From a virus, in the IMG/VR virus record IMGVR_UViG_3300047550_004903, positions 1-34,978 of that record: a stretch of 34,978 nucleotides of DNA. The stretch is one strand, 5' to 3'. The first letter of the stretch is position 1; each line of letters starts with the position of its first letter. The translations under genes and the position numbers were made by a program. Positions 22,921-32,711 of the stretch are shown piece by piece. Below the pieces are notes generated by a model. That model had not been told where the DNA came from. It saw nothing but the letters and a program-made list of their open reading frames with translations, and made no database searches.

Positions 22921-23096
22921 CCTGCCTTCCGTGAGAAAATCTCTTTATAATTCAAATCTTCCTTATTCGCATTGCCAAAAATACTTATAAAATTGTTCAG
23001 CATTTTCCAGGTTTTTTCAAACTCACTTTTAGTCAGGGAATGATACAAACATTTATTTTTTAAGTAAATATCATATCTTTTTTCATTCTTCATCAT
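22917..23096 (-). CDS. Tiny conserved-type protein (59 aa), paralogue of the 58-aa gene at 21930
   Basis: The sequence starts MMKNEKRYDIYLKNKCLYHS and continues LTKSEFEKTWKMLNNFIS. It shares the first-half pattern (aromatic-x-I-x-x-K-x-x-x-L-Y-x-x-L-T-x-x-E-F) with the gene at 21930. Translation can begin at either of two adjacent ATGs (23096, 23093). It overlaps the preceding gene by 14 bp, which implies coupled translation. Function unknown. Confidence 0.65.
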   Translation of the reverse strand: MMKNEKRYDIYLKNKCLYHSLTKSEFEKTWKMLNNFISIFGNANKEDLNYKEIFSRKAG

Positions 23097-23259
23097 ATTC
23101 TCTTAAAATAACTTCATTGGATTCGATTGCAAATTTAATCTGCGTATCCTCATACCAAGAAGCTTCATTCATAATCCATTCAGGAATTACTAAGTAGTAT
23201 TCCCCAGATATTGGGTCGACTCCTATAGATCTAATTTCATCACCGAATTTTTTTTTCAT
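23083..23259 (-). CDS. Small protein with AbrB/MazE-like look (58 aa)
   Basis: The sequence starts MKKKFGDEIRSIGVDPISGE; the second half reads YYLVIPEWIMNEASWYEDTQ followed by IKFAIESNEVILREYDEE. The order strand, IPxxI, acidic helix, (E/D)T, strand, N-x-V-I-L resembles swapped-hairpin AbrB/MazE DNA-binding proteins, but that is a resemblance only. It is preceded by a long A/T tract (about 23275-23320) and overlaps the next gene by 14 bp. Confidence 0.65.
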   Translation of the reverse strand: MKKKFGDEIRSIGVDPISGEYYLVIPEWIMNEASWYEDTQIKFAIESNEVILREYDEE

Positions 23260-23875: not shown

Positions 23876-23935
23876 AGTCTACTGGGTCAGGGGGCAGGAA
23901 GCGCCCCCTAGTGTGCCAGTTCAGCGATTGGCACC
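23876..23935 (-). promoter_or_regulatory. Cassette module 1 (dyad, GC stem, promoter)
   Basis: Dyad half-sites at 23929-23935 (GGTGCCA) and 23912-23918 (TGGCACA), 10 bp apart. GC stem 23890-23908. Weak -35 GCGCTT, 17 bp, -10 TAGACT (23876-23881). Drives the 54-aa gene at 23853. The preceding gene stops inside the dyad. Confidence 0.6.
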
Positions 23936-24085
23936 CGGCAGGTCGCCGCACTCTGCAGCGGTGCCGCCTTGACGGTGACAGTATTCAGTCGCCTCCGCTT
24001 CCTGCCAATCCCATACCGTAGCGGCGGCAGATTGTGCAAACTGGCAACCAACCCAGAGAGTCAGAAAAGCAGCAAGGATTTTCAT
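23921..24085 (-). CDS. Secreted or membrane-anchored small protein with signal peptide (54 aa)
   Basis: The N-terminus MKILAAFLTLWVGCQFAQSA is a classical signal peptide: a Lys, a hydrophobic core and a small-residue cleavage region ending SAAA near residue 22. The mature part (about 32 aa) is acidic with two Cys (AEATEYCHRQGGTAAECGD), which could form one disulphide in the periplasm. Cys14 sits after WVG, a poor lipobox, so lipidation is unlikely. A periplasmic peptide from an early phage gene could act at the host envelope; this is inference. It is the second gene of a cassette, 34 bp after the 53-aa gene. Confidence 0.7.
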   Translation of the reverse strand: MKILAAFLTLWVGCQFAQSAAATVWDWQEAEATEYCHRQGGTAAECGDLPGANR

Positions 24086-24119
24086 GGTGATGATAATGAA
24101 GTGTTCGGAGAAGTAAGAA

Positions 24120-24281
24120 TCAGCGACCGTTGGAATAGGAACCGAGGATGATACCGTTGAGGCGAACCTCAGCGTAACCAAACTCCTCAGAAAGGTCCAG
24201 ACAGAGATCCCATGCGCGACCCTCATCATGGGTCGATTCGCCTTCATAAGGGGCGGAGGGAACGTGAACTTCGTAGCGCAT
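24120..24281 (-). CDS. Small acidic hypothetical protein (53 aa)
   Basis: The sequence starts MRYEVHVPSAPYEGESTHDE and ends VRLNGIILGSYSNGR. It looks like a small alpha/beta fold (strand, helix WDLCLDLSEEF, two strands). First gene of a two-gene cassette whose second gene is the signal-peptide protein. GC-rich codon choice. Function unknown. Confidence 0.7.
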   Translation of the reverse strand: MRYEVHVPSAPYEGESTHDEGRAWDLCLDLSEEFGYAEVRLNGIILGSYSNGR

Positions 24282-24303
24282 CGGTGTCGTTTGAACTGAG
24301 ATC

Positions 24304-24363
24304 AGTATAGGGGGTTGGCGGGGGGCATCGCTGCCCCCATGTGCCAGAGGTCAGACCGTCACC
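24304..24363 (-). promoter_or_regulatory. Cassette module 2
   Basis: Half-sites GGTGACG (24357-24363) and TGGCACA (24340-24346), spacing 10 bp. Perfect stem GGGGGCA-GCGA-TGCCCCC (24321-24338). -35 CAGCGA, 18 bp, -10 TATACT (24304-24309). Serves the 53-aa gene at 24281; the 31-aa gene ends in the dyad. Confidence 0.65.
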
Positions 24364-24446
24364 CTCCAACCACAGCGGGGGCAGGAAGGATGCCCGCCAC
24401 AGGGGCAGGAAGCGGCAAGGGTCAGGGGATCATTGGAGCGGATCAT
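24351..24446 (-). CDS. Very small zinc-ribbon-like peptide (31 aa)
   Basis: Starts MIRSNDPLTLAASCPCGGHP and ends SCPRCGWRVTV. The Cys pattern C-x-C-G-G-H-x3-C-x2-C within thirteen residues could bind one zinc ion. It ends in Val-Thr-Val-stop, the same ending as several other cassette genes, because the final codons are written by the shared dyad. A promoter module stands 25 bp upstream. The length is marginal, but the position between two modules supports it. Confidence 0.6.
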   Translation of the reverse strand: MIRSNDPLTLAASCPCGGHPSCPRCGWRVTV

Positions 24447-24470
24447 TGAGCGTTCTTGTGAACTGAGAGT

Positions 24471-24529
24471 ATTGTAGAGGCAAAGGGGAGGGAGAAACCC
24501 TCCGCTGTGCCACTTAGTTGGTTGGCACA
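24471..24529 (-). promoter_or_regulatory. Cassette module 3
   Basis: Perfect dyad TGTGCCA (24523-24529) and TGGCACA (24506-24512), spacing 10 bp. Stem GGAGGG...CCCTCC (24487-24503). -35 GGTTTC (weak), 17 bp, -10 TACAAT (24471-24476). Serves the 31-aa gene. Confidence 0.6.
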
Positions 24530-24535
24530 GTCTGA

Positions 24536-24685
24536 TTAGAAGTCGATAGCATCGGCGCTAGGTTCTGCAGCATAGGAAGCGTCAAATTCAGAATCAACCC
24601 CAGAACTAATAGTTTCAAGAATTTGGAGAATTTCGCTACCGGTAGAACCTTGACGCAGGAGCGAAACAAGAACATCGCGGGACAT
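24536..24685 (-). CDS. Small conserved-type cyanophage protein (49 aa)
   Basis: The sequence starts MSRDVLVSLLRQGSTGSEIL followed by QILETISS, then an acidic tail. The helix-loop-helix core LLRQGSTGSEILQILE is a pattern I recall in many cyanophage small proteins of unknown function. The ATG at 24685 is preferred to 24736 because the family starts there. The module upstream (24742-24765) has a degraded dyad and no good -35. Confidence 0.7.
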   Translation of the reverse strand: MSRDVLVSLLRQGSTGSEILQILETISSGVDSEFDASYAAEPSADAIDF

Positions 24686-24741
24686 AATGCAGAAAAAAGA
24701 ATAGGGTTTGCTGGGTGTCTTTAGGGCGCATCCCATTCCCT

Positions 24742-24765
24742 TGTGTCAGTTAATCAGGCAGGGCA
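24742..24765 (-). promoter_or_regulatory. Degenerate cassette dyad
   Basis: TGACACA (24742-24748) with a poorly matching partner TGCCCTG (24759-24765) at the standard 10-bp spacing. The 64-aa gene stops inside it. A -10-like TATTCT lies at 24698-24703, off the usual distance, so promoter activity is doubtful. Confidence 0.35.
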
Positions 24766-24948
24766 GAGATTGGATTCCATGTTCACCGTCATGACTTTGC
24801 ATCGGGAGTAATCGTAACCCTCATTCTCCTCCAGATAGATGGAATAAGCATTAGCAGTGGAGAAGCAATCAAACAGCTTCAGGGAGTTGAAGTCTTCACG
24901 TTCATAATCCCAACCACCGATCACAGCGTAGACTTTAACCATTTGCAT
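24754..24948 (-). CDS. Small conserved-type cyanophage protein (64 aa)
   Basis: The sequence starts MQMVKVYAVIGGWDYEREDF followed by NSLKLFDCFSTANAYSIYLE. The beginning V-Y-x-V-x-x-x-x-(D)-Y-E and the aromatic helix (STANAYSIYLEE) match a common family of small phage proteins without known function. Start 24948 or 24942 (MVKVYAV); both follow module 4 closely. The stop lies in the degenerate dyad downstream. Confidence 0.75.
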   Translation of the reverse strand: MQMVKVYAVIGGWDYEREDFNSLKLFDCFSTANAYSIYLEENEGYDYSRCKVMTVNMESNLCPA

Positions 24949-24975
24949 TTGAGGCGTTTCGTTTGATCTGTACGT

Positions 24976-25035
24976 AGTATGGCAGCAAACGGGGACCATT
25001 ACAAGCCCCCTTGTGCCACCTTTTCAACTGGCACA
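24976..25035 (-). promoter_or_regulatory. Cassette module 4 (perfect dyad)
   Basis: Perfect dyad TGTGCCA (25029-25035), 10 bp, TGGCACA (25012-25018). -35 TTGTAA (24999-25004), 17 bp, -10 CATACT (24976-24981). GC stem GGGG/CCCC around the -35. The last codons of the ligase-like gene (Cys-Ala-Ser-stop) are written by this dyad. Confidence 0.75.
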
Positions 25036-25920
25036 CTGAAAGCGGCCGCTGTTGAAATTGTGATAGGAAAAGACCTCACGATTGACCAGTTTGAACATAC
25101 CAAACTGATTGGAGAGAACGTAACCCTCAGCATCGATTCTGTCGTGCCCGATGTAAGCGGCAGGACCATCATTGCGGCAGAGGTAGAGGCAATCCTCTTT
25201 GATCGACTTCACCAGTTTCCAGAATCGGATCAGGTTAGCATCACAATCAAATGCATCATCCTCAACATCACGACCCTCACGAATGCAGGCGTTAAGTTGT
25301 TGCTTCAGTTTGACCGCTTCCTTATCAGTTGCGAAGGTGACAGTTTGTGCCATTTGGCGGGCAAACTTTACCACTTCCTCAACATCAGCGAACGATTCCT
25401 GATTGTACAGGATCGATGCATTCGGTTTCACGAACTTCACCGTGTCGGTGTCATTCCAGATTGCACGATCAGGGTATGCTTGAGCATCGCGCAGATCACT
25501 CTCAGCATAATAGCAAGTGTGCGGAGCGATGATAATTTTCTGAGAAACTACCTCAGGGAACTGATACGTAATCAGGTTAGAAGTGTATTCGGTAGATCCA
25601 CCAAACCCGATGAAATCACCCTGATAGATGGTCTCAAATCGGGGCAGATAATCGAAGCAAGCATGAAGAATGTCTGCAACGTTGCCCTCATAGAAGAGAT
25701 CAATCTCTTCATGATTGTGGGCAATTCGGATTTTCTTCTTGTTAAAGACTGCCTTGGTTCCTACAAAGAACTCACCGTTGGCAGGATCAATTCCCCACAC
25801 GATTGCGGGTGCTCCGTCAATCTTAACGGACAGATTGCCAGGTTCAGCGAACCAATCCAGAACGGTAAGATCACCGTTCAGGATGCAGTCTTCGGGGTGT
25901 TCCAGGTGAGTGTTTTTCAT
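25024..25920 (-). CDS. Ligase-like covalent nucleotidyltransferase (298 aa)
   Basis: Motif I of the DNA/RNA ligase and capping-enzyme superfamily is clear: SVKIDGAPAIVWGID, with K33-x-D35-G36. Motif III may be QGDFIGFG (100-107), motif IV is E265-G266-Y-V (IDAEGYVL), and motif V a following K277. The opening THLEHPEDCIL and the block ANGEFFVGTKAVFNKKK are, from memory, typical of a phage family (DUF6267-like) annotated only as hypothetical or ligase-like. It lacks an added OB or DNA-binding domain, so it is a minimal enzyme. Predicted chemistry: lysyl-AMP formation and nucleic-acid end joining. Module 5's -10 lies 6 bp from the ATG, so the mRNA may be leaderless. Confidence 0.75.
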   Translation of the reverse strand: MKNTHLEHPEDCILNGDLTVLDWFAEPGNLSVKIDGAPAIVWGIDPANGEFFVGTKAVFNKKKIRIAHNHEEIDLFYEGNVADILHACFDYLPRFETIYQGDFIGFGGSTEYTSNLITYQFPEVVSQKIIIAPHTCYYAESDLRDAQAYPDRAIWNDTDTVKFVKPNASILYNQESFADVEEVVKFARQMAQTVTFATDKEAVKLKQQLNACIREGRDVEDDAFDCDANLIRFWKLVKSIKEDCLYLCRNDGPAAYIGHDRIDAEGYVLSNQFGMFKLVNREVFSYHNFNSGRFQCAS

Positions 25921-25926
25921 GCTTTT

Positions 25927-25985
25927 AGTATGGCACGGATTCGGGGGATCTGGGGGAACCGTGTGTCAGTTCCCCGAATGTCACA
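25927..25985 (-). promoter_or_regulatory. Cassette module 5, no -35, leaderless layout
   Basis: Dyad TGTGACA (25979-25985), 10 bp, TGACACA (25962-25968). Stem GGGGAAC...GTTCCCC (25953-25975). -10 CATACT (25927-25932) at the standard distance, but no recognisable -35. The expected start site coincides with the ATG at 25920. Confidence 0.55.
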
Positions 25986-25988
25986 AGG

Positions 25989-26312
25989 TCAGTTCAGGCG
26001 CATACCACTGAAGAACGGAATTGCACCGCCATTCGGTACAGTCACAAACCAATTGAAGTCCTTTTGAAATACACGCTCACCGTCAATTCCATGAACGGCA
26101 AGAATAGCATTCAGGCGGGATTTGGTCGTCTTGGTCTGATGATTGCCGTCGAACAGTTGAATCCAGCACGAACCAATCTTAGCGATCAGGTTACCATGCA
26201 GGAACACTTCTGCCACTTGAGCAGCACCATCCCAACACACTTGAGTGTTACCAGAGCACCAATTCTTAGCGTTGGTGATAGCATCGTTCATTTGGCGTTC
26301 GATGACACGCAT
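25989..26312 (-). CDS. Conserved-type phage protein, IERQMN family (107 aa)
   Basis: The sequence starts MRVIERQMNDAITNAKNWCS, continues with VFLHGNLIAKIG, then HQTKTTKSRLNAILAVHGID, and ends in FQKDFNWFVTVPNGG. This order (IERQMN, NW, LHGN-x-IA, T-x-TTKSRLNA, FQKDF-W) is, from memory, a widespread small family in cyanophages and other marine phages, function unknown. The ATG at 26312 is the family start; the in-frame extension to 26381 runs through the promoter module and is rejected. Confidence 0.85.
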   Translation of the reverse strand: MRVIERQMNDAITNAKNWCSGNTQVCWDGAAQVAEVFLHGNLIAKIGSCWIQLFDGNHQTKTTKSRLNAILAVHGIDGERVFQKDFNWFVTVPNGGAIPFFSGMRLN

Positions 26313-26337
26313 TTGCGAATTCCTCAGCAACAAACGT

Positions 26338-26397
26338 AGTATGGCAGCAAACGGGGGGCATCGCAACCCCCCTTGTGCCACCTATTCGACTGTCACA
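26338..26397 (-). promoter_or_regulatory. Cassette module 6 (best example)
   Basis: Dyad TGTGACA (26391-26397), 10 bp, TGGCACA (26374-26380). Stem GGGGGG-TTGCGATG-CCCCCC (26353-26372) with the -35 TTGCGA (26361-26366) in its loop. 17-bp spacer, -10 CATACT (26338-26343). The upstream gene ends Val-Thr-Val-Glu-stop inside the dyad. Confidence 0.75.
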
Positions 26398-26597
26398 CTC
26401 TCCACCAGTTCCTGAATGACATCCTCATCATACACATTGGCGATCTCATTTAGAACATCTTCCTCACCCATGTGATACATGTTCTCACAGATGGTATCAT
26501 ACACGAACTGCTCCAAACATTTCGTGTCCATGTCATCTACACATCGCTCAGCGTAGAGTTCAACGAGTTGGTTGAGTTGTTGGGTGGTGAGAGTCAT
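26382..26597 (-). CDS. Small acidic conserved-type cyanophage protein (71 aa)
   Basis: The sequence starts MTLTTQQLNQLVELYAERCV and continues DDMDTKCLEQFVYDTI, with an acidic helical end (EDVLNEIANVYDEDVIQELV). A wholly helical, acidic protein. I recall homologous small proteins (MTLT-x-x-QL-x-x-LVE) in T4-like cyanophages, no function assigned. It is the last gene of the run that begins at 28108. Its final codons and stop lie in module 6. Confidence 0.75.
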   Translation of the reverse strand: MTLTTQQLNQLVELYAERCVDDMDTKCLEQFVYDTICENMYHMGEEDVLNEIANVYDEDVIQELVESVTVE

Positions 26598-26601
26598 AAT
26601 T

Positions 26602-26862
26602 TCAGAAATTAAGTGATTTAATGTTGAGAAAAACCATCTGAAGAGGTTCACCGTTCACATGAAAGAACACATAGTTTTTGTGAACTTCAATGTCACCATC
26701 TACAGTGGAGAGATCAACATAATCCTGCCCATCATTGTCGGAAATGTAAGGATTGTCGTCCGTATCATACCCTACAAAGTATAGAGTATCATTCACAGAT
26801 ACTGCATAAGAATCAGAAAGCAGATCGTGAAATTGATTGAGAGTGATAGTAGTGTTGGTCAT
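26602..26862 (-). CDS. Small acidic hypothetical protein (86 aa)
   Basis: The sequence starts MTNTTITLNQFHDLLSDSYA and is followed by strand-rich segments (TLYFVGYDTDDNPYISDND, VHKNYVFFHVNGEPLQMVF). Strongly acidic. Gaps of only 4 bp to the next gene and 2 bp to the preceding one show it is inside an operon. Function unknown. Confidence 0.75.
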   Translation of the reverse strand: MTNTTITLNQFHDLLSDSYAVSVNDTLYFVGYDTDDNPYISDNDGQDYVDLSTVDGDIEVHKNYVFFHVNGEPLQMVFLNIKSLNF

Positions 26863-26864
26863 AA

Positions 26865-27053
26865 TCAGTTCAGCTTCTCAAAGTTACGGACAACAATGTC
26901 ACAGGCAATTCTTTGGACTTCATCCATTTGCCCCTCATCATCAAATTGTGTTGCTAGAAGACAAATCAAATCCTCTTGGATTTGTTCGCGGACAGAAAGA
27001 ATGTCAATCTTATTCGCCATGTCTTTGATCCATTGCTCTTTGGAGTTAGTCAT
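26865..27053 (-). CDS. Small acidic helical protein (62 aa)
   Basis: The sequence starts MTNSKEQWIKDMANKIDILS and ends CDIVVRNFEKLN. Predicted all-helical. It lies 2 bp before the 86-aa gene and 3 bp after the 89-aa gene. Function unknown. Confidence 0.7.
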   Translation of the reverse strand: MTNSKEQWIKDMANKIDILSVREQIQEDLICLLATQFDDEGQMDEVQRIACDIVVRNFEKLN

Positions 27054-27056
27054 GAT

Positions 27057-27326
27057 TCAGTTAGCGTAGAGGGGCAGTTTTTTACGAAGGCGGATTGCGT
27101 CGTCAATCATTTCACCAACCTGTTCATAAATGTAGGACGAACCGCCTACATCACAGAGAACATCTTGAGTGAAAAGTGTAGAGAAATAATCGTCCTGATT
27201 AGTCTCTTCGTTAAACTCAAACACATCATGTTGAGTGAATACGAACGCAGCACAACCTGCGTCCTCACCTTGACTCTCAATCATTTGGTTGATAGAGTCA
27301 CGAAGTTGTCCAAGAGTGCGGTACAT
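27057..27326 (-). CDS. Small conserved-type cyanophage protein (89 aa)
   Basis: The sequence starts MYRTLGQLRDSINQMIESQG, then EDAGCAAFVFTQHDVF, and later YIYEQVGEMIDDAIR. The TLGQL-x-x-x-I-x-x-x-IESQGEDA-x-CAA motif is one I recall from many cyanophages, function unknown. The ATG shares one base with the stop of the 52-aa gene (TGATG), implying coupled translation. Confidence 0.8.
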   Translation of the reverse strand: MYRTLGQLRDSINQMIESQGEDAGCAAFVFTQHDVFEFNEETNQDDYFSTLFTQDVLCDVGGSSYIYEQVGEMIDDAIRLRKKLPLYAN

Positions 27327-27484
27327 CAGTCGTCTCCGAAGTTGTTAGTGAGGAAGTCTTCAAGTTCAACGAGTTTGTTATCACTCAAAGAATGAACATA
27401 CTCTTTGAGAATGACATCTAGAAGTTCAGGACTTTCATAGCATTTGTCATACAAAAACTCAAAGAGTTCTGTTTTGTCAGTCAT
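27326..27484 (-). CDS. Small acidic helical protein (52 aa)
   Basis: The sequence starts MTDKTELFEFLYDKCYESPE and ends LEDFLTNNFGDD. It fills the gap between the 82-aa and 89-aa genes exactly: its ATG overlaps the upstream stop by 4 bp (ATGA), and its stop shares one base with the next ATG. Function unknown. Confidence 0.75.
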   Translation of the reverse strand: MTDKTELFEFLYDKCYESPELLDVILKEYVHSLSDNKLVELEDFLTNNFGDD

Positions 27485-27729
27485 TTGAGAACGTAACGAA
27501 AGTCGATGTTGTTAATGCACCAACCAGAAGAACAGGAAACTTCTTCTAGCAGTTCCTCTGTAACTTCATAATCATCGGCATCATCGGAAACCTCCAACTC
27601 AAACACCTGTCCGATGTATGCTTTGGGGAGCATTTCTTCAGTTTCCAGTTGATCTTTTTCTGTCCAATCGCTATCATCGAGAGAACAATCGAACGAAATG
27701 TCGGTGATCTGAACTGTACGAATCGCCAT
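27481..27729 (-). CDS. Conserved-type acidic cyanophage protein (82 aa)
   Basis: The sequence starts MAIRTVQITDISFDCSLDDS, and the conserved-looking end is CSSGWCINNIDFRYVLK. The pattern IRTV-x-ITDI...E-x-(T/S)-x-x-x-GWC-x-x-x-ID-x-R is, from memory, a frequent small cyanophage protein. ATG at 27729 shares one base with the upstream stop (TGATG); the GTG one codon earlier is less likely. A cassette dyad lies upstream inside the previous gene. Function unknown. Confidence 0.8.
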   Translation of the reverse strand: MAIRTVQITDISFDCSLDDSDWTEKDQLETEEMLPKAYIGQVFELEVSDDADDYEVTEELLEEVSCSSGWCINNIDFRYVLK

Positions 27730-27938
27730 CACGAATCTTGCGAACTTTCATAAGATACAACGGATTCATCACCAACGGGAGAATCCTGTGCCACTTTCAC
27801 AACTGGCACACGATAATTGTAAGGAGAATTGAAAAAACGACGGAAAGCAACAACAACGATGAGAAGCGTTGAAGTGACACCAACCAAACCAAGGAAGGTG
27901 ATAGCATCGCCAGAGAAAGTGTAGGTATCAGGGTTCAT
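27729..27938 (-). CDS. Small single-span membrane protein whose frame reads through a cassette dyad (69 aa)
   Basis: The sequence starts MNPDTYTFSGDAITFLGLVG; residues 12-31 form one transmembrane helix (LLIVVVAF at its end), then Arg-Arg. Residues 44-51 (VPVVKVAQ) are written by a perfect cassette dyad at 27787-27810, in the frame where other genes stop (Val-x-Val-x-stop). Here no stop is present and the protein gains about 18 residues. A start at 27989, sharing one base with the upstream stop, would add 17 residues (MILASVALRYHF) and is possible. Function unknown. Confidence 0.65.
   Translation of the reverse strand: MNPDTYTFSGDAITFLGLVGVTSTLLIVVVAFRRFFNSPYNYRVPVVKVAQDSPVGDESVVSYESSQDS
27787..27810 (-). 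promoter_or_regulatory. Cassette dyad inside a coding region
   Basis: Perfect TGTGCCA (27804-27810), 10 bp, TGGCACA (27787-27793), but located in codons 44-51 of the 69-aa membrane protein gene. A weak -10-like TTGTAT follows. If active it would serve the 82-aa gene at 27729. Confidence 0.5.
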
Positions 27939-27988
27939 AGTGGCAAGTCGGTGAAAGTGATAACGAAGGGCAACAGATGCGAGAATCA

Positions 27989-28108
27989 TCAATAATCGTA
28001 GTCGGCGGCAAGGTACTCATTCATGTTGAAATCCTCGTCATTCAGTTCAGGAATGTCAAAGATTTCACCAGGAGCATCTTGAATCTCACTCCAGAGTTCG
28101 TCAAACAT
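27989..28108 (-). CDS. Very small acidic conserved-type protein (39 aa)
   Basis: The sequence starts MFDELWSEIQDAPGEIFDIP, followed by ELNDEDFNMNEYLAADYDY. The P-G-(E/D)-(I/V)-FD-(I/V)-PELN-(D/N)-EDF core is one I recall from other cyanophages. First gene after module 7, heading the longest run of close-packed genes (28108 down to 26382). Function unknown. Confidence 0.75.
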   Translation of the reverse strand: MFDELWSEIQDAPGEIFDIPELNDEDFNMNEYLAADYDY

Positions 28109-28131
28109 GTGTGTCTCTCAGGTACGAATGT

Positions 28132-28191
28132 AATGTAGAACGGATCGGGGGGAATTTCAACCCCCCTTGTGCCAGTTTTCAGACTGTCACT
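28132..28191 (-). promoter_or_regulatory. Cassette module 7
   Basis: Half-sites AGTGACA (28185-28191) and TGGCACA (28168-28174), 10 bp apart. Stem GGGGGG-TTGAAATT-CCCCCC (28147-28166) with -35 TTGAAA (28155-28160) in the loop. 17 bp, -10 TACATT (28132-28137). Heads the operon starting at 28108. Confidence 0.7.
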
Positions 28192-28355
28192 TCCATCAGT
28201 TCAGATTCAATCTCATGTCCGAACCTACGGATGAACTCAGAATCAGATTGCCTCAGAACATTTGCCAGTTCGATTGCATCTTCACGGGATACTTGCGACA
28301 CCTGAAAAGTGTAGTGTCCAAATGCAGGATCTTGTTCAGTGTGAAAGCAGCACAT
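28179..28355 (-). CDS. Small hypothetical protein (58 aa)
   Basis: The sequence starts MCCFHTEQDPAFGHYTFQVS, then an amphipathic helix (SREDAIELANVLRQSDSEFI), and ends LMEVTV. The Val-Thr-Val-stop end is encoded by module 7. Its leader is long: module 8 lies about 130 bp upstream, with structured non-coding sequence between. Function unknown. Confidence 0.7.
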   Translation of the reverse strand: MCCFHTEQDPAFGHYTFQVSQVSREDAIELANVLRQSDSEFIRRFGHEIESELMEVTV

Positions 28356-28483
28356 TGGAGTACCTCAGGAACAAATGTAAATTGAGAGGGCACGGTAATT
28401 ACTTTTACCTCAACCGCATGTCCCCGCTTCTAGTTGTCGGGGTGGTTGGGAACCGCCTTTTGTTCTTCCCTCTCAACAAATGT
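28356..28483 (-). other. Structured non-coding leader or cassette relic
   Basis: No convincing ORF lies between module 8 and the 58-aa gene. The minus strand holds a stem CCCCG...CGGGG (about 28421-28441), a small hairpin GGTAA-AAGTAA-TTACC (28393-28408), and a second copy of the cassette leader (ACATTTGTTCCTGAG) right before the ATG at 28355. The doubled leader suggests a cassette whose gene was lost. Confidence 0.4.
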
Positions 28484-28543
28484 AGTATGGCAGGGATCTC
28501 ATGAGAACACAAGACCCCTTGTGCCAGTTTTCAGACCGTCCGC
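28484..28543 (-). promoter_or_regulatory. Cassette module 8
   Basis: Promoter-near half-site TGGCACA (28520-28526) intact; distal half degraded (GCGGACG). -35 TTGTGT (28507-28512), 17 bp, -10 CATACT (28484-28489), then leader ACATTTGTTGAG. The 103-aa gene ends Thr-Val-stop inside it. Confidence 0.65.
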
Positions 28544-28842
28544 AGGAAGTTATAAACGCTGCGGCAATCATCGTAGAAAGACTTCACGTTGGGCACGAAC
28601 ACATTCATCACCCAGGCATAGAAAGTCTTTGCCAGTTCGATTACACGAAGCACGAACAATTGCAGACGCTCGGTGCAATCATACTGCTGCCACTTATCAC
28701 GAATGACAGTAGCAACGGCAGCGATGAATGCACACACAGTTACAACAACGTCCATGAAGTTGTTGTAGTGTTTACGATAGTCAATCTCCTGCAGAGTTTC
28801 GATCAGAGCATCAGCAGGCGGGAAGGATTTGGTCAGTTCCAT
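28531..28842 (-). CDS. Membrane protein of conserved cyanophage type (103 aa)
   Basis: The sequence starts MELTKSFPPADALIETLQEI; residues 29-46 (FMDVVVTVCAFIAAVATV) form a transmembrane helix. A second, amphipathic helical part follows (LQLFVLRVIELAKTFYAWVM), then VPNVKSFYDDCRSVY. The layout short helix, membrane helix, KWQQ-x-x-CT and a KSFY end resembles a small-protein family I recall in cyanophages. The in-frame extension to 28917 crosses the leader of module 9, so the ATG at 28842 was chosen. Function unknown. Confidence 0.75.
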   Translation of the reverse strand: MELTKSFPPADALIETLQEIDYRKHYNNFMDVVVTVCAFIAAVATVIRDKWQQYDCTERLQLFVLRVIELAKTFYAWVMNVFVPNVKSFYDDCRSVYNFLRTV

Positions 28843-28899
28843 GATAGTGAAAAGAGCGAAAGAACGGTGTGGGAGATTGCGTTTCTCAACCACGAATGT

Positions 28900-28959
28900 A
28901 GTATGGCACGATATCACGGCATCCGCAACCAGGTCTGTGCCACTTGTTCAACTGTCACA
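28900..28959 (-). promoter_or_regulatory. Cassette module 9
   Basis: Dyad TGTGACA (28953-28959), 10 bp, TGGCACA (28936-28942). -35 TTGCGG (28923-28928), 17 bp, -10 CATACT (28900-28905), then ACATTCG. No gene ends here, so the dyad is kept even where there is no upstream gene to end. Confidence 0.7.
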
Positions 28960-28963
28960 AGAC

Positions 28964-29034
28964 TTTTTCAGGTTTTACGCTTTTTCAGTATTTCTGAAAA
29001 TTCAGAATTCCTGAAAATTTCAGTCAGGAACAAG
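28964..29034. repeat. Cluster of CTGAAAA / TTTTCAG inverted words
   Basis: The 70-bp stretch contains TTTTTCAG twice on the plus strand and CTGAAAATT twice, giving several alternative hairpins, for example TTTCTGAAAATTCAGAA. No ORF. It lies between module 9 and the plus-strand promoter at 29039. It could be a binding-site cluster or a structured RNA end. Confidence 0.5.
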
Positions 29035-29038
29035 GGGC

Positions 29039-29067
29039 TTGACAAGATCTCAAATATTCGCTAGAAT
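29039..29067 (+). promoter_or_regulatory. Plus-strand sigma70 promoter
   Basis: TTGACA (29039-29044), 17 bp, TAGAAT (29062-29067). It points rightwards, against all nearby genes, and has no protein gene downstream; the candidate small RNA 29074-29174 follows. Confidence 0.6.
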
Positions 29068-29073
29068 CGCTTT

Positions 29074-29174
29074 GCTAAGGATGAAGATGGGATTATAAGC
29101 TTTAAGACACAAAAATATGACTCCTAAGTGACAAGATTTAAACATAAGATCTTGTCAGGAATCGTCCTGTTTTT
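29074..29174 (+). ncRNA. Candidate plus-strand small RNA of about 100 nt
   Basis: Bounded by a consensus sigma70 promoter (29039-29067) and a terminator-like stem followed by five T (29156-29174). The 3-prime half has an 8-bp stem (GACAAGAT 29130-29137 with ATCTTGTC 29149-29156, loop 11 nt). The only internal reading frame is a five-codon ATG-to-TAA after an AAGG. It is antisense to the 3-prime half of the doubtful 37-codon minus ORF at 29138. No match to a known RNA family was recognised. Confidence 0.45.
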
Positions 29175-29251
29175 AAATTATTCTTACTCGTCACATGTAT
29201 ATTATGTCCTATTTTATTTGCCAGAGATAGGATTGAACTCTCGCTCATCAT
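29138..29251 (-). CDS. Possible small late gene (37 aa), doubtful
   Basis: An exact TATAAATA box (29260-29267) lies 8 bp before the ATG at 29251. The frame starts MMSESSILSLANKIGHNIHV and ends LKTGRFLTRSYV. There is no ribosome binding site and the transcript would be almost leaderless. The first 40 bp also resemble the T-arm and 3-prime acceptor strand of a tRNA, so the ORF may be chance over a tRNA relic. Function unknown. Confidence 0.25.
   Translation of the reverse strand: MMSESSILSLANKIGHNIHVTSKNNLKTGRFLTRSYV
29156..29174 (+). terminator. Terminator-like hairpin of the candidate small RNA
   Basis: CAGGA-ATCG-TCCTG followed by TTTTT on the plus strand. The stem is only 5 bp but has a tight loop and a proper T-run. 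It is directly preceded by the 8-bp stem at 29130-29156, sharing one C. Confidence 0.5.
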
Positions 29252-29259
29252 ATTGTTTT

Positions 29260-29267
29260 TATTTATA
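29260..29267 (-). promoter_or_regulatory. Exact T4-type late box in the early region
   Basis: TATAAATA on the minus strand, the same word as ahead of gp25 and gp8. It lies in a gene-poor stretch. The only downstream candidates are the 37-codon ORF at 29138 and, further on, the 103-aa gene. Confidence 0.5.
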
Positions 29268-29336
29268 ACAAAAGCACATTATAATGGTGTGGGAAGGGGT
29301 GAGTGGGGTGAAGCACATATTCTTGCACATAAACAT

Positions 29337-29367
29337 AAAAAAAAAGGCAGGGACACCACTCCCTGCC
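29337..29367 (-). terminator. Strong intrinsic terminator
   Basis: On the minus strand GGCAGGGA-GTGGTG-TCCCTGCC is followed by nine T: a textbook intrinsic terminator. It closes the leftward transcripts that carry the ArdA-like gene and separates them from the late box at 29260. Confidence 0.85.
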
Positions 29368-29371
29368 TTAT

Positions 29372-29422
29372 GTTACCCACTCTACCTTATATGATATGAT
29401 TATCTCGACGCGCAGGGTAACT
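29372..29422. repeat. GTTACCC / GGGTAAC inverted repeat
   Basis: Perfect 7-bp arms at 29372-29378 and 29416-29422, separated by 37 bp, just before the strong terminator in the leftward direction. It could pair in the 3-prime untranslated RNA of the ArdA transcript. No gene in 29368-29532. Confidence 0.4.
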
Positions 29423-29488
29423 TTACTGAATGCTGAGGCAAACCCGTTCCTCATATGATTATGTATATCTCGTTATGATGATAATAAT

Positions 29489-29518
29489 GAGATCATGTGA
29501 TATCTCGCACATGATCTC
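29489..29518 (-). repeat. Perfect 11-bp hairpin downstream of the ArdA-like gene
   Basis: GAGATCATGTG (29489-29499) and its exact reverse complement CACATGATCTC (29508-29518) around an 8-nt loop, 14 bp past the ArdA-like stop. On the minus strand it is followed by ATTATTAT, so it may act as a first terminator or as a 3-prime stabilising stem. Confidence 0.65.
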
Positions 29519-29532
29519 GTATGCGATCTCGT

Positions 29533-29949
29533 TCAGAAGTTACGATGGAACACGAACCCATCCACGAAATCAAAATCATATTGCAGATTTTTATCCCACG
29601 TTGCCTGCCAATCTACGACCACATAGAAAGGAATATCACCGTGAATTTCATGAGTGAATTCCTCAGCAAAATCTGCCTCAGAATCATACATGCCACGGTA
29701 GGCATCACCACAGTGCTCAACACAAGAGAGACCGTGATACTCTACGAATGCATCCACAACAACATAACCCAGATTCTCACCTTGCTCCACATACTCAACG
29801 TAATAGGAAACAAGATCCTCTTCGGAGTTTTGATCAACGAACTCCAGAATGTCATCCAGAGCATAGTTGTCCTCCAGCAGACCGTCGATGAATTCAACAG
29901 TCTCAGCAGCAAAGATTTCTTTGTAGTTAGCGGTGAAGGTCACGGACAT
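29533..29949 (-). CDS. ardA: ArdA-like antirestriction protein (138 aa)
   Basis: The C-terminal half has the ArdA signature: G-x-YDSEADFAEEFTHEI (residues 86-102), then VVDWQATWDKNL (111-122) and DFVDGFVFHRNF at the end. The protein is overwhelmingly acidic with only four Lys/Arg, as expected of a DNA mimic that occupies type I restriction-modification enzymes. At 138 aa it is somewhat shorter than typical ArdA (about 165 aa), with a reduced N-terminal domain. It is directly behind cassette module 10, so probably made early, when restriction must be blocked. Confidence 0.8.
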   Translation of the reverse strand: MSVTFTANYKEIFAAETVEFIDGLLEDNYALDDILEFVDQNSEEDLVSYYVEYVEQGENLGYVVVDAFVEYHGLSCVEHCGDAYRGMYDSEADFAEEFTHEIHGDIPFYVVVDWQATWDKNLQYDFDFVDGFVFHRNF

Positions 29950-29973
29950 GGTGGTTGTTTCAGGAACGAATGT

Positions 29974-30033
29974 AATGTAGCAGGGTTGTGGGGGTTTCGC
30001 AACCCCCTGTGTGCCAGTTTCTAAACCGTCACA
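29974..30033 (-). promoter_or_regulatory. Cassette module 10 (ardA promoter)
   Basis: Half-sites TGTGACG (30027-30033) and TGGCACA (30010-30016), 10 bp apart. Stem GGGGG-TTGCGAAA-CCCCC (29990-30007) with -35 TTGCGA (29997-30002). 17 bp, -10 TACATT (29974-29979), then leader ACATTCGTTCCTGA. The upstream gene ends Val-Thr-Val-stop in the dyad. Confidence 0.75.
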
Positions 30034-30233
30034 TAGAGTAGTTTATCAGGGGCACGGTAGATGTTATCACCGTACCAAACTTCTAGGCGAAGAGTGTGAC
30101 CGTAGAAGTGAGTCGGAATGCCATAACGAAGGAAACCATTCGTGGTTTTATAATGCGAAGTCAGGAATGCATTATTCATACCAACTTCATCGTAGGTTTT
30201 GTCTTCATTCTGGCGGGTGCAGATGATCTTCAT
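30021..30233 (-). CDS. Small conserved-type cyanophage protein (70 aa)
   Basis: The sequence starts MKIICTRQNEDKTYDEVGMN, then NAFLTSHYKTTNGFLRYGIP, and ends with VEVWYGDNIY-like strands. The pattern EDKTYDEVG...YKT-x-x-GF...EVWYGD-x-IY is one I recall from cyanophages, function unknown. The in-frame extension to 30293 crosses module 11 and is rejected. Confidence 0.75.
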   Translation of the reverse strand: MKIICTRQNEDKTYDEVGMNNAFLTSHYKTTNGFLRYGIPTHFYGHTLRLEVWYGDNIYRAPDKLLYVTV

Positions 30234-30260
30234 CGGGGTGAATTTGTTTGGTATGAATGT

Positions 30261-30320
30261 AATATAACAGGGTGGCAGCGGAACCGCAACCACCCCTGTG
30301 CCAGTTTCTAGAGTGTCACA
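30261..30320 (-). promoter_or_regulatory. Cassette module 11
   Basis: Dyad TGTGACA (30314-30320), 10 bp, TGGCACA (30297-30303). Stem GGTGG...CCACC (30271-30294). -35 TTGCGG (30284-30289), 17 bp, -10 TATATT (30261-30266). The 88-aa gene stops in the distal half-site. Confidence 0.75.
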
Positions 30321-30582
30321 CCATCACCAGTTCGGGTGACTTTTCAACCTTAAAGTTGCCCAGCGGACCATAAACAATCGAAATAGGATAGTCGCTGAAT
30401 TCCTGAATCACTTCCCACGTTTCATGGCGGACTCGGATGATCACGGCACCATCCATTTCAGGATCTTGAAGATGAGCATTATAGATTCCGCAAGCATAAC
30501 CAATTGTGCTGCAGAATGCGAATTGATTAAAGAACCCATGATCAGCATGACCGAAACCAATCACACGATAGGTGGTTTGCAT
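30316..30582 (-). CDS. Small hypothetical protein (88 aa)
   Basis: The sequence starts MQTTYRVIGFGHADHGFFNQ; the middle has FAFCSTIGYACGIYNAHLQD and then VIIRVRHETWEVIQEF. Mixed alpha/beta. One gene per module, ending Val-Met-Val-stop in module 11. Function unknown. Confidence 0.75.
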   Translation of the reverse strand: MQTTYRVIGFGHADHGFFNQFAFCSTIGYACGIYNAHLQDPEMDGAVIIRVRHETWEVIQEFSDYPISIVYGPLGNFKVEKSPELVMV

Positions 30583-30606
30583 GGTGGATTTCTCAGGAAC
30601 GAATGT

Positions 30607-30666
30607 AGATTATCAGGGATTGATCAGGAGCACAAGGGGTCTTGTGCCACTTAGGCAGGCGGCACA
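30607..30666 (-). promoter_or_regulatory. Cassette module 12
   Basis: Half-sites TGTGCCG (30660-30666) and TGGCACA (30643-30649), 10 bp apart. -35 TTGTGC (30630-30635), 17 bp, -10 TAATCT (30607-30612), then ACATTCGTTCCTGAG. The 75-aa gene stops in the spacer. Confidence 0.7.
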
Positions 30667-30878
30667 TCTGCCAGCAGCAGGCGGTGGCAACGTGCTGCCT
30701 CTTCTAGGATATCACGATCCGTGAAGGGGTCAAAGGATTCCCATTCCACGAACTTATAAGCACCCAGAGTAGTTTCATACGATCCATCTTCCAGCAGCGG
30801 AGCATACATCAGATCTTCATCACATTCGGGATCCAGAGTATAAGTGCAACCGTTCTTCTGAGAGATCATGAAAACCAT
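30651..30878 (-). CDS. Small acidic hypothetical protein (75 aa)
   Basis: The sequence starts MVFMISQKNGCTYTLDPECD and is followed by EDLMYAPLLEDGSYET and a helix (DRDILEEAARCHRLLLADVP). Strongly acidic. Its first 13 bp overlap the end of the 65-aa frame upstream. The ATG at 30878 follows the usual leader of the modules (CCGAGGAATTCAAATG). Function unknown. Confidence 0.75.
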   Translation of the reverse strand: MVFMISQKNGCTYTLDPECDEDLMYAPLLEDGSYETTLGAYKFVEWESFDPFTDRDILEEAARCHRLLLADVPPA

Positions 30879-31063
30879 TTGAATTCCTCGGGAACGAAAC
30901 CAATATAACCCCACCAGACCCTTCTACAATCGCCTCTGTGCCACTTGAAGAACTGGCACAGGGTCTTACCACGCTGGAGATTAATCTGGTATCTTATAGG
31001 GACAATCTGATGAGGGGAGAGGTATCCCTGCGGACGACAATACATCGTCACTGGTCCTGCCAT
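30866..31063 (-). CDS. Small basic protein whose end reads through a promoter module (65 aa)
   Basis: The sequence starts MAGPVTMYCRPQGYLSPHQI and continues VPIRYQINLQRGKTL. From residue 36 on (CQFFKWHRGDCRRVWWGYIG) the frame translates module 13 itself, dyad and promoter, and stops 13 bp inside the next gene. In most other cassettes the stop lies in the dyad; here it is missing. The tail is rich in Trp, Arg and Lys. It starts 19 bp after the terminator at 31082, with no good promoter of its own visible. Function unknown. Confidence 0.55.
   Translation of the reverse strand: MAGPVTMYCRPQGYLSPHQIVPIRYQINLQRGKTLCQFFKWHRGDCRRVWWGYIGFVPEEFKWFS
30902..30960 (-). promoter_or_regulatory. Cassette module 13 (rightmost)
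   Basis: Perfect dyad TGTGCCA (30954-30960), 10 bp, TGGCACA (30937-30943). -35 TTGTAG (30924-30929), 16 bp, -10 TATATT (30902-30907). Serves the 75-aa gene at 30878. Its whole length is also coding in the 65-aa frame. Confidence 0.65.
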
Positions 31064-31670: not shown

Positions 31671-31789
31671 AGAACTAGAGGCATTTATAAGCATTTATAA
31701 GCATTTATAAGCATTTACAAGAACTAGAGGCATTTACAAGTATTCAGAAGCATTCAGAGGCATTTATAAGCATTTACAAGTATTTAAAG
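31671..31789. repeat. Tandem array of twelve ~10-bp units (iteron-like)
   Basis: Units in order: AGAACTAGAG, GCATTTATAA three times, GCATTTACAA, GAACTAGAG (9 bp), GCATTTACAA, GTATTCAGAA, GCATTCAGAG, GCATTTATAA, GCATTTACAA, GTATTTAAAG. The unit length is close to one helical turn. On the minus strand the commonest unit reads TATAAATG, one base from the late promoter word. The array runs directly into the first DnaA-type box. Confidence 0.8.
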
Positions 31790-31810
31790 TTTTCCACACA
31801 CTTTTCCACA
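31790..31810 (+). promoter_or_regulatory. Two DnaA-type boxes
   Basis: TTTTCCACA at 31790-31798 and again at 31802-31810, same direction, 12 bp start to start. This is the cyanobacterial form of the DnaA box (Synechococcus oriC); the E. coli form is TTATCCACA. Two in a row beside iterons is unlikely by chance, but binding is unproven. Confidence 0.6.
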
Positions 31811-31952: not shown

Positions 31953-32711
31953 ATGAGCAGAGGAATCATCTATCTCATCACCAACAAAGAAAATGGGTAC
32001 AAATATATCGGTCAAACAACTCAGGGAATGAACAAGAGGTGGAAACAGCACATTCAAGAAGCAATACGAATGAGTGATAAACCATTACATCGTGCCATGC
32101 GTAAATATGGTAATCACAACTTTATGATTAAAGAAATTGATGAATGTGATGAGAGTCTATTAAATGAAAGAGAAAAACATTGGATTAAAAAATACAATAC
32201 GTTTGAAAGTGCAGAAGGTTATAATACTACATCACCCGAAGATACAGTAGTATTCATTAAAGAAACAAAACCACCCGAAGGCACAGAAAAAGCAAAGGCA
32301 AAGATAGAACCCTGGGGTATTCTTACAGAACAAAACAGAGGTAATGGTAAGCACTGTGGTCTAAAAATAAGAGGAAAGAATCTAGAAACAGGTTTATGTA
32401 CTGACTATGAAAATGCCCGTATGGCAGCATTATCCATTACAGGTAATCCGAATAAGAATAGCAATATTCTACTTGCTGCACGGAATGGTGGTACTGCCTA
32501 TGGACACAAGTGGCAGATCTTAGAAGAAAAATCTAAAAAGAAATCGGTGTTCGGTGTTCATAAAAAAACAGGGTTGATTGGTCCCCGCCATGAATCAATT
32601 GTGAATGCTGTGCGTTCATTAAGTGAATCCGGTACTGGTACGGGAATCATTAAAAGCCTACGCAATCCCGGCAGGTTTAGTTGGAAAGGATATTACTGGT
32701 TTTATGGTTAG
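31953..32711 (+). CDS. GIY-YIG homing endonuclease with NUMOD-like repeats (252 aa)
   Basis: The N-terminal nuclease domain shows the GIY-YIG pattern in GIIYLITNKENGYKYIGQTT (residues 4-23), the catalytic Arg region (KRWKQH, R29 and H33) and the metal-binding Glu region NEREKHWI (E72/E74). After a charged linker there are two related DNA-binding segments of about 45 aa: 147-190 (YENARMAAL...YGHKWQIL) and 206-252 (HESIVNAVRS...WKGYYWFYG), like NUMOD helix repeats. It is the only plus-strand gene and is not inside an obvious intron. Its 3-prime end overlaps the end of the convergent membrane-protein gene by 54 bp. Confidence 0.88.
   Translation: MSRGIIYLITNKENGYKYIGQTTQGMNKRWKQHIQEAIRMSDKPLHRAMRKYGNHNFMIKEIDECDESLLNEREKHWIKKYNTFESAEGYNTTSPEDTVVFIKETKPPEGTEKAKAKIEPWGILTEQNRGNGKHCGLKIRGKNLETGLCTDYENARMAALSITGNPNKNSNILLAARNGGTAYGHKWQILEEKSKKKSVFGVHKKTGLIGPRHESIVNAVRSLSESGTGTGIIKSLRNPGRFSWKGYYWFYG

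Follow-up and report, generated by a model that had tools for sequence, protein, structure and literature searches.

A phased 24-bp dyad before small-gene promoters of T4-like cyanophages, a putative activator site also present at the edge of the rRNA operon leader in some marine Synechococcus-like genomes

The window (the whole stretch of DNA analysed, 34,978 nt or 35 kb) is part of the genome of a T4-like cyanophage. Between 23.9 and 31.0 kb it contains 14 dyads of 24 bp, of the type TGTGNCA-N10-TGGCACA (Table 1), while none would be expected by chance. All 14 had been listed in a preliminary description and were found again on the minus strand, with half-sites exactly 10 bp apart and with the promoter-near half reading TGGCACA in 13 copies and TGACACA in one. 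TGGCACA itself occurs 23 times in the window (2.4 expected; shuffle maximum 6), and a near-complete dyad was found at eight places (16 strand matches) as compared to none in 100 shuffles. A -10-like hexamer, previously reported for 13 copies, starts 28–30 bp past the dyad in every one of the 14. The statement that most copies also have a -35 is fair, as TTG lies exactly 7 bp past the dyad in nine of the 14; the -35 is nevertheless the weaker element. The distal half was described as variable, and it is indeed weak in four copies (28526, GCGGACG; 24346, GGTGACG; 28174, AGTGACA; 23918, GGTGCCA). A score combining dyad and -10 gave 15 matches over the window and none in the reversed control; because all 15 fall within 23.9–31.1 kb, the promoters placed outside the array (22892, 31291, and 31469) lack a scoring dyad, as had been proposed.

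Table 1. Dyad modules and associated features in the window.
Feature	Position	Strand	-10	Start codon	Remarks
TGTGCCA-gttcttcaag-TGGCACA	30937..30960	-	TATATT 30907-30902	30878	
TGTGCCG-cctgcctaag-TGGCACA	30643..30666	-	GATAAT 30614-30609	ATG 30582	contains stop of upstream ORF
TGTGACA-ctctagaaac-TGGCACA	30297..30320	-	TATATT 30266-30261	ATG 30233	TTG at +7; hairpin GGGTGG/CCACCC
TGTGACG-gtttagaaac-TGGCACA	30010..30033	-	TACATT 29979-29974	ATG 29949	hairpin GGGGGTT(gcga)AACCCCC
TGTGACA-gttgaacaag-TGGCACA	28936..28959	-	CATACT 28905-28900		
GCGGACG-gtctgaaaac-TGGCACA	28520..28543	-	CATACT 28489-28484		distal half poor
AGTGACA-gtctgaaaac-TGGCACA	28168..28191	-	TACATT 28137-28132	ATG 28108	hairpin GGGGGG(ttgaaatt)CCCCCC; gene family found again under modules in 23 loci
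TGTGCCA-gttgtgaaag-TGGCACA	27787..27810	-	TATCTT 27757-27752	ATG 27729	
TGTGACA-gtcgaatagg-TGGCACA	26374..26397	-	CATACT 26343-26338	ATG 26312	hairpin GGGGGG(ttgcgatg)CCCCCC, TTG inside; 60-bp module 84-89% identical to marine ACG-2014f
TGTGACA-ttcggggaac-TGACACA	25962..25985	-	CATACT 25932-25927	ATG 25920	
DUF6267 gene	25024-25920	-			under dyad 25962..25985; leader very short
TGTGCCA-gttgaaaagg-TGGCACA	25012..25035	-	CATACT 24981-24976	ATG 24948	
TGCCCTG-cctgattaac-TGACACA	24742..24765	-			degenerate 15th copy, possibly decayed; no clear -10 at usual place
TGTGCCA-accaactaag-TGGCACA	24506..24529	-	TACAAT 24476-24471	ATG 24446	hairpin GGAGGG(tttct)CCCTCC
GGTGACG-gtctgacctc-TGGCACA	24340..24363	-	TATACT 24309-24304	ATG 24281	hairpin GGGGGCA(gcga)TGCCCCC
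GGTGCCA-atcgctgaac-TGGCACA	23912..23935	-	TAGACT 23881-23876	ATG 23853	hairpin AGGGGGC/GCCCCCT
phrog_661, 58-aa ORF	23083..23259	-			acidic, AbrB/MazE-fold-like; downstream edge of array

The same layout was found in approximately 150 viral loci and more than 15 cyanophage genomes, where TTG lies exactly 7 bp past the dyad, a TATAAT-like -10 at 29 ± 1 bp and the start codon at 55–64 bp; these comparisons refined the dyad to TGTG(C/A)CA-STW-N4-WAS-TGGCACA, in which the inner bases (STW and WAS) are conserved as well. Of 441 dyad sides among IMG/VR sequences, 95 have TTG at exactly +7 (background 10.7) and 98 have TATAAT, allowing one mismatch, at +29 (background 4.1). A total of 809 modules precede 348 unrelated, mostly tiny, gene families, with the start codon 55–64 nt from the dyad in 507; the word "rigid", used of the module earlier, is thus right as regards dyad-to-start spacing. 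With 16–18 bp between the -35 and the TATAAT-like -10, and a start codon shortly downstream, a σ70-type layout is met. Whole genomes (Syn9, S-PM2, P-SSM2, P-SSM4, S-CRM01, S-SRM01, S-SKS1, and ACG-2014f) contain 9–41 dyad-plus-(-10) matches each, as compared to 0–3 in reversed controls, and reference-phage homologs of the IMG module genes carry the module in 53 of 170 cases (background 2–5%). Absence of the dyad from related phages had been set beforehand as a refuting test; the dyad is conserved. Modules are used by viruses of marine and freshwater cyanobacteria and lie mainly in the small-gene region adjoining gp25–gp6, at about 5 to 40 per T4-like cyanophage. A genome scan of S-SM2 found no dyad, with a different repeat present at the same genes, and S-TIM5 has a variant half-site in place of the module; searching S-SM2 and S-CREM1 de novo for alternative dyads preceding -10s yielded nothing above background. 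No earlier description of the motif was found in the literature on cyanophage promoter motifs and rrn promoters, a coverage that excludes the Syn9 transcription start site data (Doron et al. 2016) and the early/middle/late gene lists of P-HM2 and P-SSM2.

Divergence among three ACG-2014f isolates was 1.5% in the arms, 0% in the -10, and 0.7% at +1 to +12, as compared to 7.6% in the spacer and 11% in the central N4 (p = 9e-13); judged by this divergence, the arms and the -10 are constrained and the spacer is not. Equal phasing in hundreds of other loci, together with this purifying selection between isolates, indicates that the array is not a product of chance. In the same isolates, 14 of 23 cassette indel breakpoints fall within 40 bp of a module (3.4 expected), which is in line with the term "cassette" in the preliminary description, although breakpoints at gene borders generally would look alike. 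This clustering and the great diversity of the target genes could mean that the module serves chiefly in recombination, providing short repeated homology for gain, loss, or swap of small-gene cassettes with the promoter as a passenger. We consider this improbable, since homology needs neither a fixed 29-bp spacing across a diverged spacer nor arms and a -10 that are kept while N4 and spacer drift, since gene-border breakpoints are common anyway, and since no recombinase linked to the arrays was seen in a non-exhaustive search. Even less credible is an RNA role in which the dyad would form a hairpin where the upstream transcript ends (i.e., a terminator or processing site), although the arms are complementary and the stop codon of the upstream gene often lies inside the dyad. 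Dyad positions 8 and 17 each hold G or C, yet the two bases cannot pair in 122 of 184 G/C combinations (p = 1e-5), so that compensatory change keeping RNA pairing is not seen there; positions that are conserved yet tend not to pair argue for a protein–DNA site. The stem is also often broken by an A at arm position 5 opposite G, and a hairpin would leave the fixed distance to the next -10 unexplained. Of 345 modules, 58 (5.5 expected) have a second, GC-rich hairpin past the dyad and ahead of the -10, with a T run after it in 19 of the 58. Some modules thus do look like a terminator plus promoter, but the terminator-like part is this GC hairpin and not the dyad. The earlier proposal of a protein-binding site that controls the whole gene set is supported by the phasing, the non-pairing at positions 8 and 17, and the constraint on arms and -10, all of them sequence tests without binding data.

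Such a protein might be encoded by the phages themselves, in which the motif is concentrated while no host regulon was seen. A weak candidate is phrog_661, which would act as an activator or as a later-acting repressor that shuts the array off. At least 15 dyad-carrying cyanophages encode it, in most cases at the edge of the array (e.g., in the window and at Syn9 53843, P-SSM2 69258, P-SSM4 52126, ACG-2014f 59905, S-PM2 1955, and S-SRM01 93347); the family has no true member in the dyad-free S-SM2 and has one IMG/VR member above the Pfam MazE_antitoxin cut-off. However, the protein is very acidic, is undetectable in the dyad carriers S-CRM01 (11 dyads), S-SSM7 (13 dyads), and P-HM2 (7 dyads), and is found in S-CREM1 alongside only variant dyads; while it tracks the dyad well, failure in three phages means that the gene is not present whenever the dyad is, and it was rejected as a dyad-tracking regulator. 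The 54-aa HTH-like core protein phrog_1308 also fails to follow the dyad, being present in S-SM2 and absent from P-SSM4, and no HTH_3 (PF01381) member over the cut-off was found in cyanophages. Phyletic profiling, run with two negative genomes and with one, found no other family that tracked the dyad and returned Dam-type methyltransferases, oxygenases, and structural proteins but nothing convincing; this profiling is weak, with a single clean dyad-negative relative, and a phage-encoded binder may have been missed by a homology-based profile. Overall, a phage-encoded regulator seems unlikely, though it deserves to be kept in mind.

A host protein, by comparison, is an inference that we place just below an even chance. 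A pattern scan of 300 Cyanobiaceae genomes revealed no host regulon; strict dyads were present in 16 of the 300, which is chance level apart from rrn. In nine marine Synechococcus-like (Cyanobiaceae) genomes, a dyad is located at the upstream edge of the 16S rRNA operon leader, 430–456 bp before 16S in the eight genomes measured, and column identity rises from 0.50 upstream to 0.93 in the dyad and 0.84–0.92 downstream. The best -10 of the host rrn promoter (TACCTT, with TG upstream) lies 32 bp from the dyad, not 29. The rrn dyad was seen in one host clade only, with more diverged rrn leaders beyond the reach of sequence search; a Synechococcus lacustris match (L232) was rejected as a module because it forms a long perfect hairpin. 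Because nine hosts keep the dyad at this edge, the leading candidate for the binder, as yet unproven, is a host factor with a role at rrn; as some hosts have a closely similar site at the border of their rRNA control region, these data suggest that the viruses borrow a host growth switch. The boldest form of this reading, held only tentatively and somewhat more apt to be wrong than right, is that T4-like cyanophages carry, in dozens of promoters, copies of the host rRNA operon's upstream activator site, through which an unidentified picocyanobacterial growth-rate regulator would drive takeover genes. Any such activator would not be essential for cyanophage infection, as S-SM2 infects similar hosts yet has no dyad.

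To our knowledge, almost all cyanophage host-takeover genes are of unknown function, and we know of no account of their joint activation. The observed sequence, spacing, breadth, and selection of the module, with the dyad conserved at the rrn leader edge in nine hosts, make it reasonably probable that the dyad is a site for a dimeric activator near -54 of σ70-type promoters, the leading candidate for it being a host protein that also acts at rrn. In this model, a dimeric, sequence-specific activator would occupy about -65 to -42 (centre about -54) at promoters whose -10 is strong but whose -35 is weak or missing, and would assist the host σ70-type RNA polymerase in initiating at the small gene directly downstream. 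One activator could thereby switch on the whole host-takeover cassette array together, and if it is a host protein also acting at the host rRNA operon promoter, the favoured candidate under this model, phage takeover genes would be driven like host ribosome genes. Binding, activation, early timing, and the host origin of the binder are inferred, with no binding or transcription-start data at hand. The single promoter grammar allows candidate takeover genes to be listed straight from metagenome sequence (348 families here) and is usable for operon prediction, and the module provides a single bait for fishing out the regulator. If the regulator is a host protein at rRNA operons, phage development would be coupled to the growth rate of the host, hence to light and nutrients, and Synechococcus and Prochlorococcus would be shown to have an rRNA regulator; should the site indeed have been copied from rrn, the dyad would give access to an rRNA regulator, as yet unknown, of the most abundant photosynthetic cells. 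The other repeat in S-SM2 and the variant half-site in S-TIM5 make specificity and promoter turnover testable.

Among known systems, the Ogr/Delta-activated late promoters of phage P2 and its satellite P4 have a 24-bp hyphenated dyad near -55, a weak -35, and one small activator serving many promoters. The cyanophage module shares this geometry (a 24-bp dyad centred at about -55 before a weak -35), but its half-site is TGTGCCA rather than TGT(TGT), and it precedes dozens of single early-region genes rather than a few late operons. The system itself was rejected, as none of 16 records searched gave a hit above the threshold for the phage-encoded zinc-finger activator (Ogr_Delta, PF04606); the best, at E = 0.001, fell in a reading frame interrupted by stops. 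A CRP/FNR-type operator, TGTGA-N6-TCACA with its outer ends 16 bp apart, was rejected because the arms here are TGTG-N16-CACA, 24 bp overall. A σ54 -24/-12 promoter (TGGCAC-N5-TTGC, GG and GC about 12 bp apart) was also rejected; TTG sits exactly at +7 after TGGCACA, which places the elements about 15 bp apart, and a σ70-type -10 lies at +29. As far as we know, cyanobacteria have no σ54. T4 early and MotA-dependent middle promoters are numerous and use host RNA polymerase to express small host-takeover genes, as proposed for the many cyanophage modules, and those of the middle class have an activator box in place of the -35; the MotA box is, however, a single site at about -30, while the cyanophage dyad lies at -54. 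Start-associated sequences of cluster K mycobacteriophages are conserved intergenic units with promoters or start signals before many small genes, and we know of no fixed dyad-to-(-10) ruler comparable to ours in these or in the repeats of halovirus HF2. The HF2 class I repeats (PMC8707807) are likewise conserved intergenic units of this kind before many small genes; both sets resemble the cyanophage array in being repeated before small genes but belong to other host groups and differ in sequence.

In S-PM2d, gel shifts have shown a binding site for a host transcription factor, PhoB, in a cyanophage promoter (Rihtman et al. 2024, PMC10976474), a parallel to the host-factor reading proposed here. 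As far as the accessible text of PMC10976474 goes, the dyad module is not mentioned, and the Pho box differs from the dyad in sequence, occurs at few genes, and is tied to phosphate stress; a PhoB reading of the dyad was rejected on geometry or sequence. One unverified predicted Pho box in the same study (S-PM2d250, CCTATACT GAT CTCAGTTC; PMC10976474) resembles the -10/start region of a dyad module (window 24309).

All 14 minus-strand copies of the dyad (two 7-bp half-sites, or arms, separated by 10 bp, with TGGCACA as the promoter-proximal half) listed in the preliminary description were present in the window. TGGCACA was tenfold more common in the window than expected, and a near-complete dyad was found at eight places, versus none in shuffled sequences. 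A -10-like hexamer begins 28–30 bp past the dyad in all 14 copies, and a TTG is located exactly 7 bp past it in nine; with the -10 as reference, the dyad extends from approximately -65 to -42 and is centred near -54. Several upstream ORFs terminate within the dyad (e.g., V-T-V-stop from GTGACAGTCTGA).

The window represents the entire IMG/VR record (34,978 bases). At the DNA level it matches Synechococcus phages S-SRM01, DSL-LC02, and S-CREM1, which all belong to the Kyanoviridae. After the small-gene array, read along the minus strand, come a glycosyltransferase-like gene and then ORFs at the gp25 and gp6 positions; this order matches Syn9, S-PM2, and P-SSM2, where gp25-gp6 closes the small-gene region. 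Tandem CTTATAAATGC/CTTGTAAATGC/CCTCTGAATGC repeats (minus strand) are located just upstream of the array, and CGAGAT(C/A)-type words (ACGAGATCGCATACGAGATCATGTGCGAGATATC) are repeated between two modules at 29400–29540.

Coordinates of the array, neighbouring features, and variant promoter repeats
Feature	Record	Position	Strand	Remark
Small-gene array	window	31.0 to 23.9 kb	-	
phrog_661 ORF	window	23083-23259		array edge
Homing-endonuclease-like gene	window	31953-32711	+	adjoins the tandem repeats at 31680-31800
S-SM2 repeat (GGGGGTCGNNTAAAGNGTCYY, then ATAGTRTGAG-like)	NC_015279	42684, 47254, 49088, 51929, 54362, 55296, 56333, 57114		before early genes
S-TIM5 variant modules	NC_019516	163791, 165061, 165347, 168440, 170905		

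The module (the ~60-bp unit of dyad, -35, and -10) is a real and general cyanophage feature. The exact dyad presented at least 120 matches in IMG/VR, often with three to seven copies per contig, and the inner ten bases, which were left out of the search pattern, were conserved as S-T-W-N4-W-A-S. Counting both sides of each dyad (441 sides), TTG peaked at exactly +7 (95 versus 10.7) and TATAAT-like hexamers at +29 (98 versus 4.1). The -35 was only weakly conserved in modules chosen for a good -10, as expected for an activator-dependent promoter. With the 60-bp module as query, 77 phage records were matched, 76 of them cyanophages, with identity across the module reaching 89% in ACG-2014f, and 145 of 150 module-bearing IMG/VR loci contained homologs of T4-like cyanophage proteins. 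In whole-genome scans, hits numbered 41 for ACG-2014f, 31 for S-SRM01 (of which 220 kb was scanned), 23 for S-CRM01, 20 for S-PM2, 18 for P-SSM2, 14 for P-SSM4, 13 for S-SKS1, and 9 for Syn9, versus 0 to 3 in reversed-sequence controls; dyads are also present in P-HM2, P-RSM4, P-SSM7, S-SSM7, Syn19, and S-SM1. No published description of the module was found, but part of it may have been described already, as a study of Syn9 transcription start sites was not covered.

A total of 809 distinct modules precede genes of 348 homology clusters (243 singletons), with a median product of 77 residues; for 507 modules, the distance from dyad to start codon is 55–64 nt. Recurrent targets include several unknown early-region families, a helicase, DUF6267, an ATPase, and a metallopeptidase. 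IMG/VR module genes had 170 homologs in the eight reference phages; a module preceded 53 of these, compared to 2–5% of background ORFs, suggesting that gene and module travel together above chance, yet not always.

Comparison of modules defined in one ACG-2014f isolate with two other isolates showed divergence of 1.5% (12/795) in the arms, 0% (0/341) in the -10, and 0.7% in the first 12 bases past it. The corresponding values were 7.6% for the spacer, 11% for the N4 core, 4.0% for upstream sequence, and 2.3% for the gene downstream (arms versus N4 plus spacer, p = 9e-13). Choosing modules from a single isolate under-counts arm changes on its side; doubling arm divergence did not change the conclusion on arm constraint. 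The near-invariant 12 bases, which recur in modules generally as GTAATCAA, CAGTTCAAAC, or CATACCAAA, are possibly a start-site or translation signal. Between these isolates, breakpoints of cassette indels tend to fall at modules (14 of 23 within 40 bp, versus 3.4 expected, without a module-free gene-border control). The Pho box predicted for S-PM2d250 by Rihtman et al. 2024 (PMC10976474), CCTATACT GAT CTCAGTTC, corresponds to the -10 of a module together with its start region (window 24309–24291), and may thus be a promoter instead of a Pho box.

Pairing between positions 8 and 17 would be expected if the arms formed an RNA stem. Both positions are nearly always G or C, but of 184 such combinations 122 do not pair (p = 1e-5, related sequences not being independent); on this base-pairing evidence, the dyad would appear to be a DNA site rather than an RNA element. 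Another hairpin, rich in GC, separates dyad and -10 in 58 of 345 modules (5.5 expected), among them 7 of the 14 window copies; in some cases a T run follows it and it encloses the -35 TTG (e.g., AGACCC(ttgac)GGGTCTttttt in S-SKS1); part of the modules therefore look like an upstream-gene terminator fused to the next gene's promoter.

We consider it probable that the dyad is an activator site of a σ70-type promoter class. The module geometry resembles that of the P2/P4 Ogr/Delta system, but the test for proteins of that family failed, no Ogr_Delta protein exceeding the cut-off in the 16 records searched. HTH_3 proteins were also not found above the cut-off in cyanophages. Binding by a phage factor seems rather unlikely; the best phage-side candidate, phrog_661, a small acidic AbrB/MazE-fold-like protein encoded at the array edge, co-occurs with dyads in most phages and is missing from the dyad-bearing S-CRM01, S-SSM7, and P-HM2. 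Ahead of a phage factor we place a host factor acting on rrn, itself a tentative proposal. The strict dyad occurred in only 16 of 300 Cyanobiaceae genomes, and dyad plus -10 gave 38 scattered matches in 84,980 genomes (the viral collection being richer among the matches listed), giving no sign of a host regulon in either set. Four host matches, however, lie upstream of 16S rRNA (rRNA was confirmed by Rfam in loci of the set), and a DNA-level search, with more diverged rrn leaders beyond its reach, recovered this element from nine genomes. In eight of these (marine Synechococcus-like), the 16S start was readable and the dyad is 431–456 bp upstream of 16S. Neither the proximal TGGCACA nor the inner TAG varies, and conservation of the leader sets in abruptly at the dyad, its upstream edge (column identity averages 0.50 before the dyad, 0.93 within it, 0.84 across the spacer, and about 0.9 further down). 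The hexamer at +29 is TGCTAC; a better -10, TACCTT, is at +32. A second conserved host dyad, TGTGGCAGTTTGTTTTCTGGCACA, is present in three Cyanobiaceae genomes (L288, L289, and L294), with no known RNA family nearby.

In S-SM2 the dyad is absent, and early genes homologous to module genes carry another repeat, GGGGGTCG-NN-TAAAG-N-GTCYY (8 copies, none in the control), which we interpret as a replacement promoter repeat. In five S-TIM5 modules, TGGCACA is replaced by TGGCCCA or TGGCCCT, with the -10 at +30, a possible specificity variant; the count of this half-site by itself was not above control. S-CREM1 presents the variant halves TGGTCCA, TGGTCGT, and TGTCCAC. In a freshwater phage without T4-like cyanophage homologs (IMGVR_UViG_3300031784_003461, 280–2400), stacks of two to six dyads in steps of ~57–63 bp are located upstream of single minus-strand genes, one of which (386–706) encodes an HTH antitoxin-like protein.
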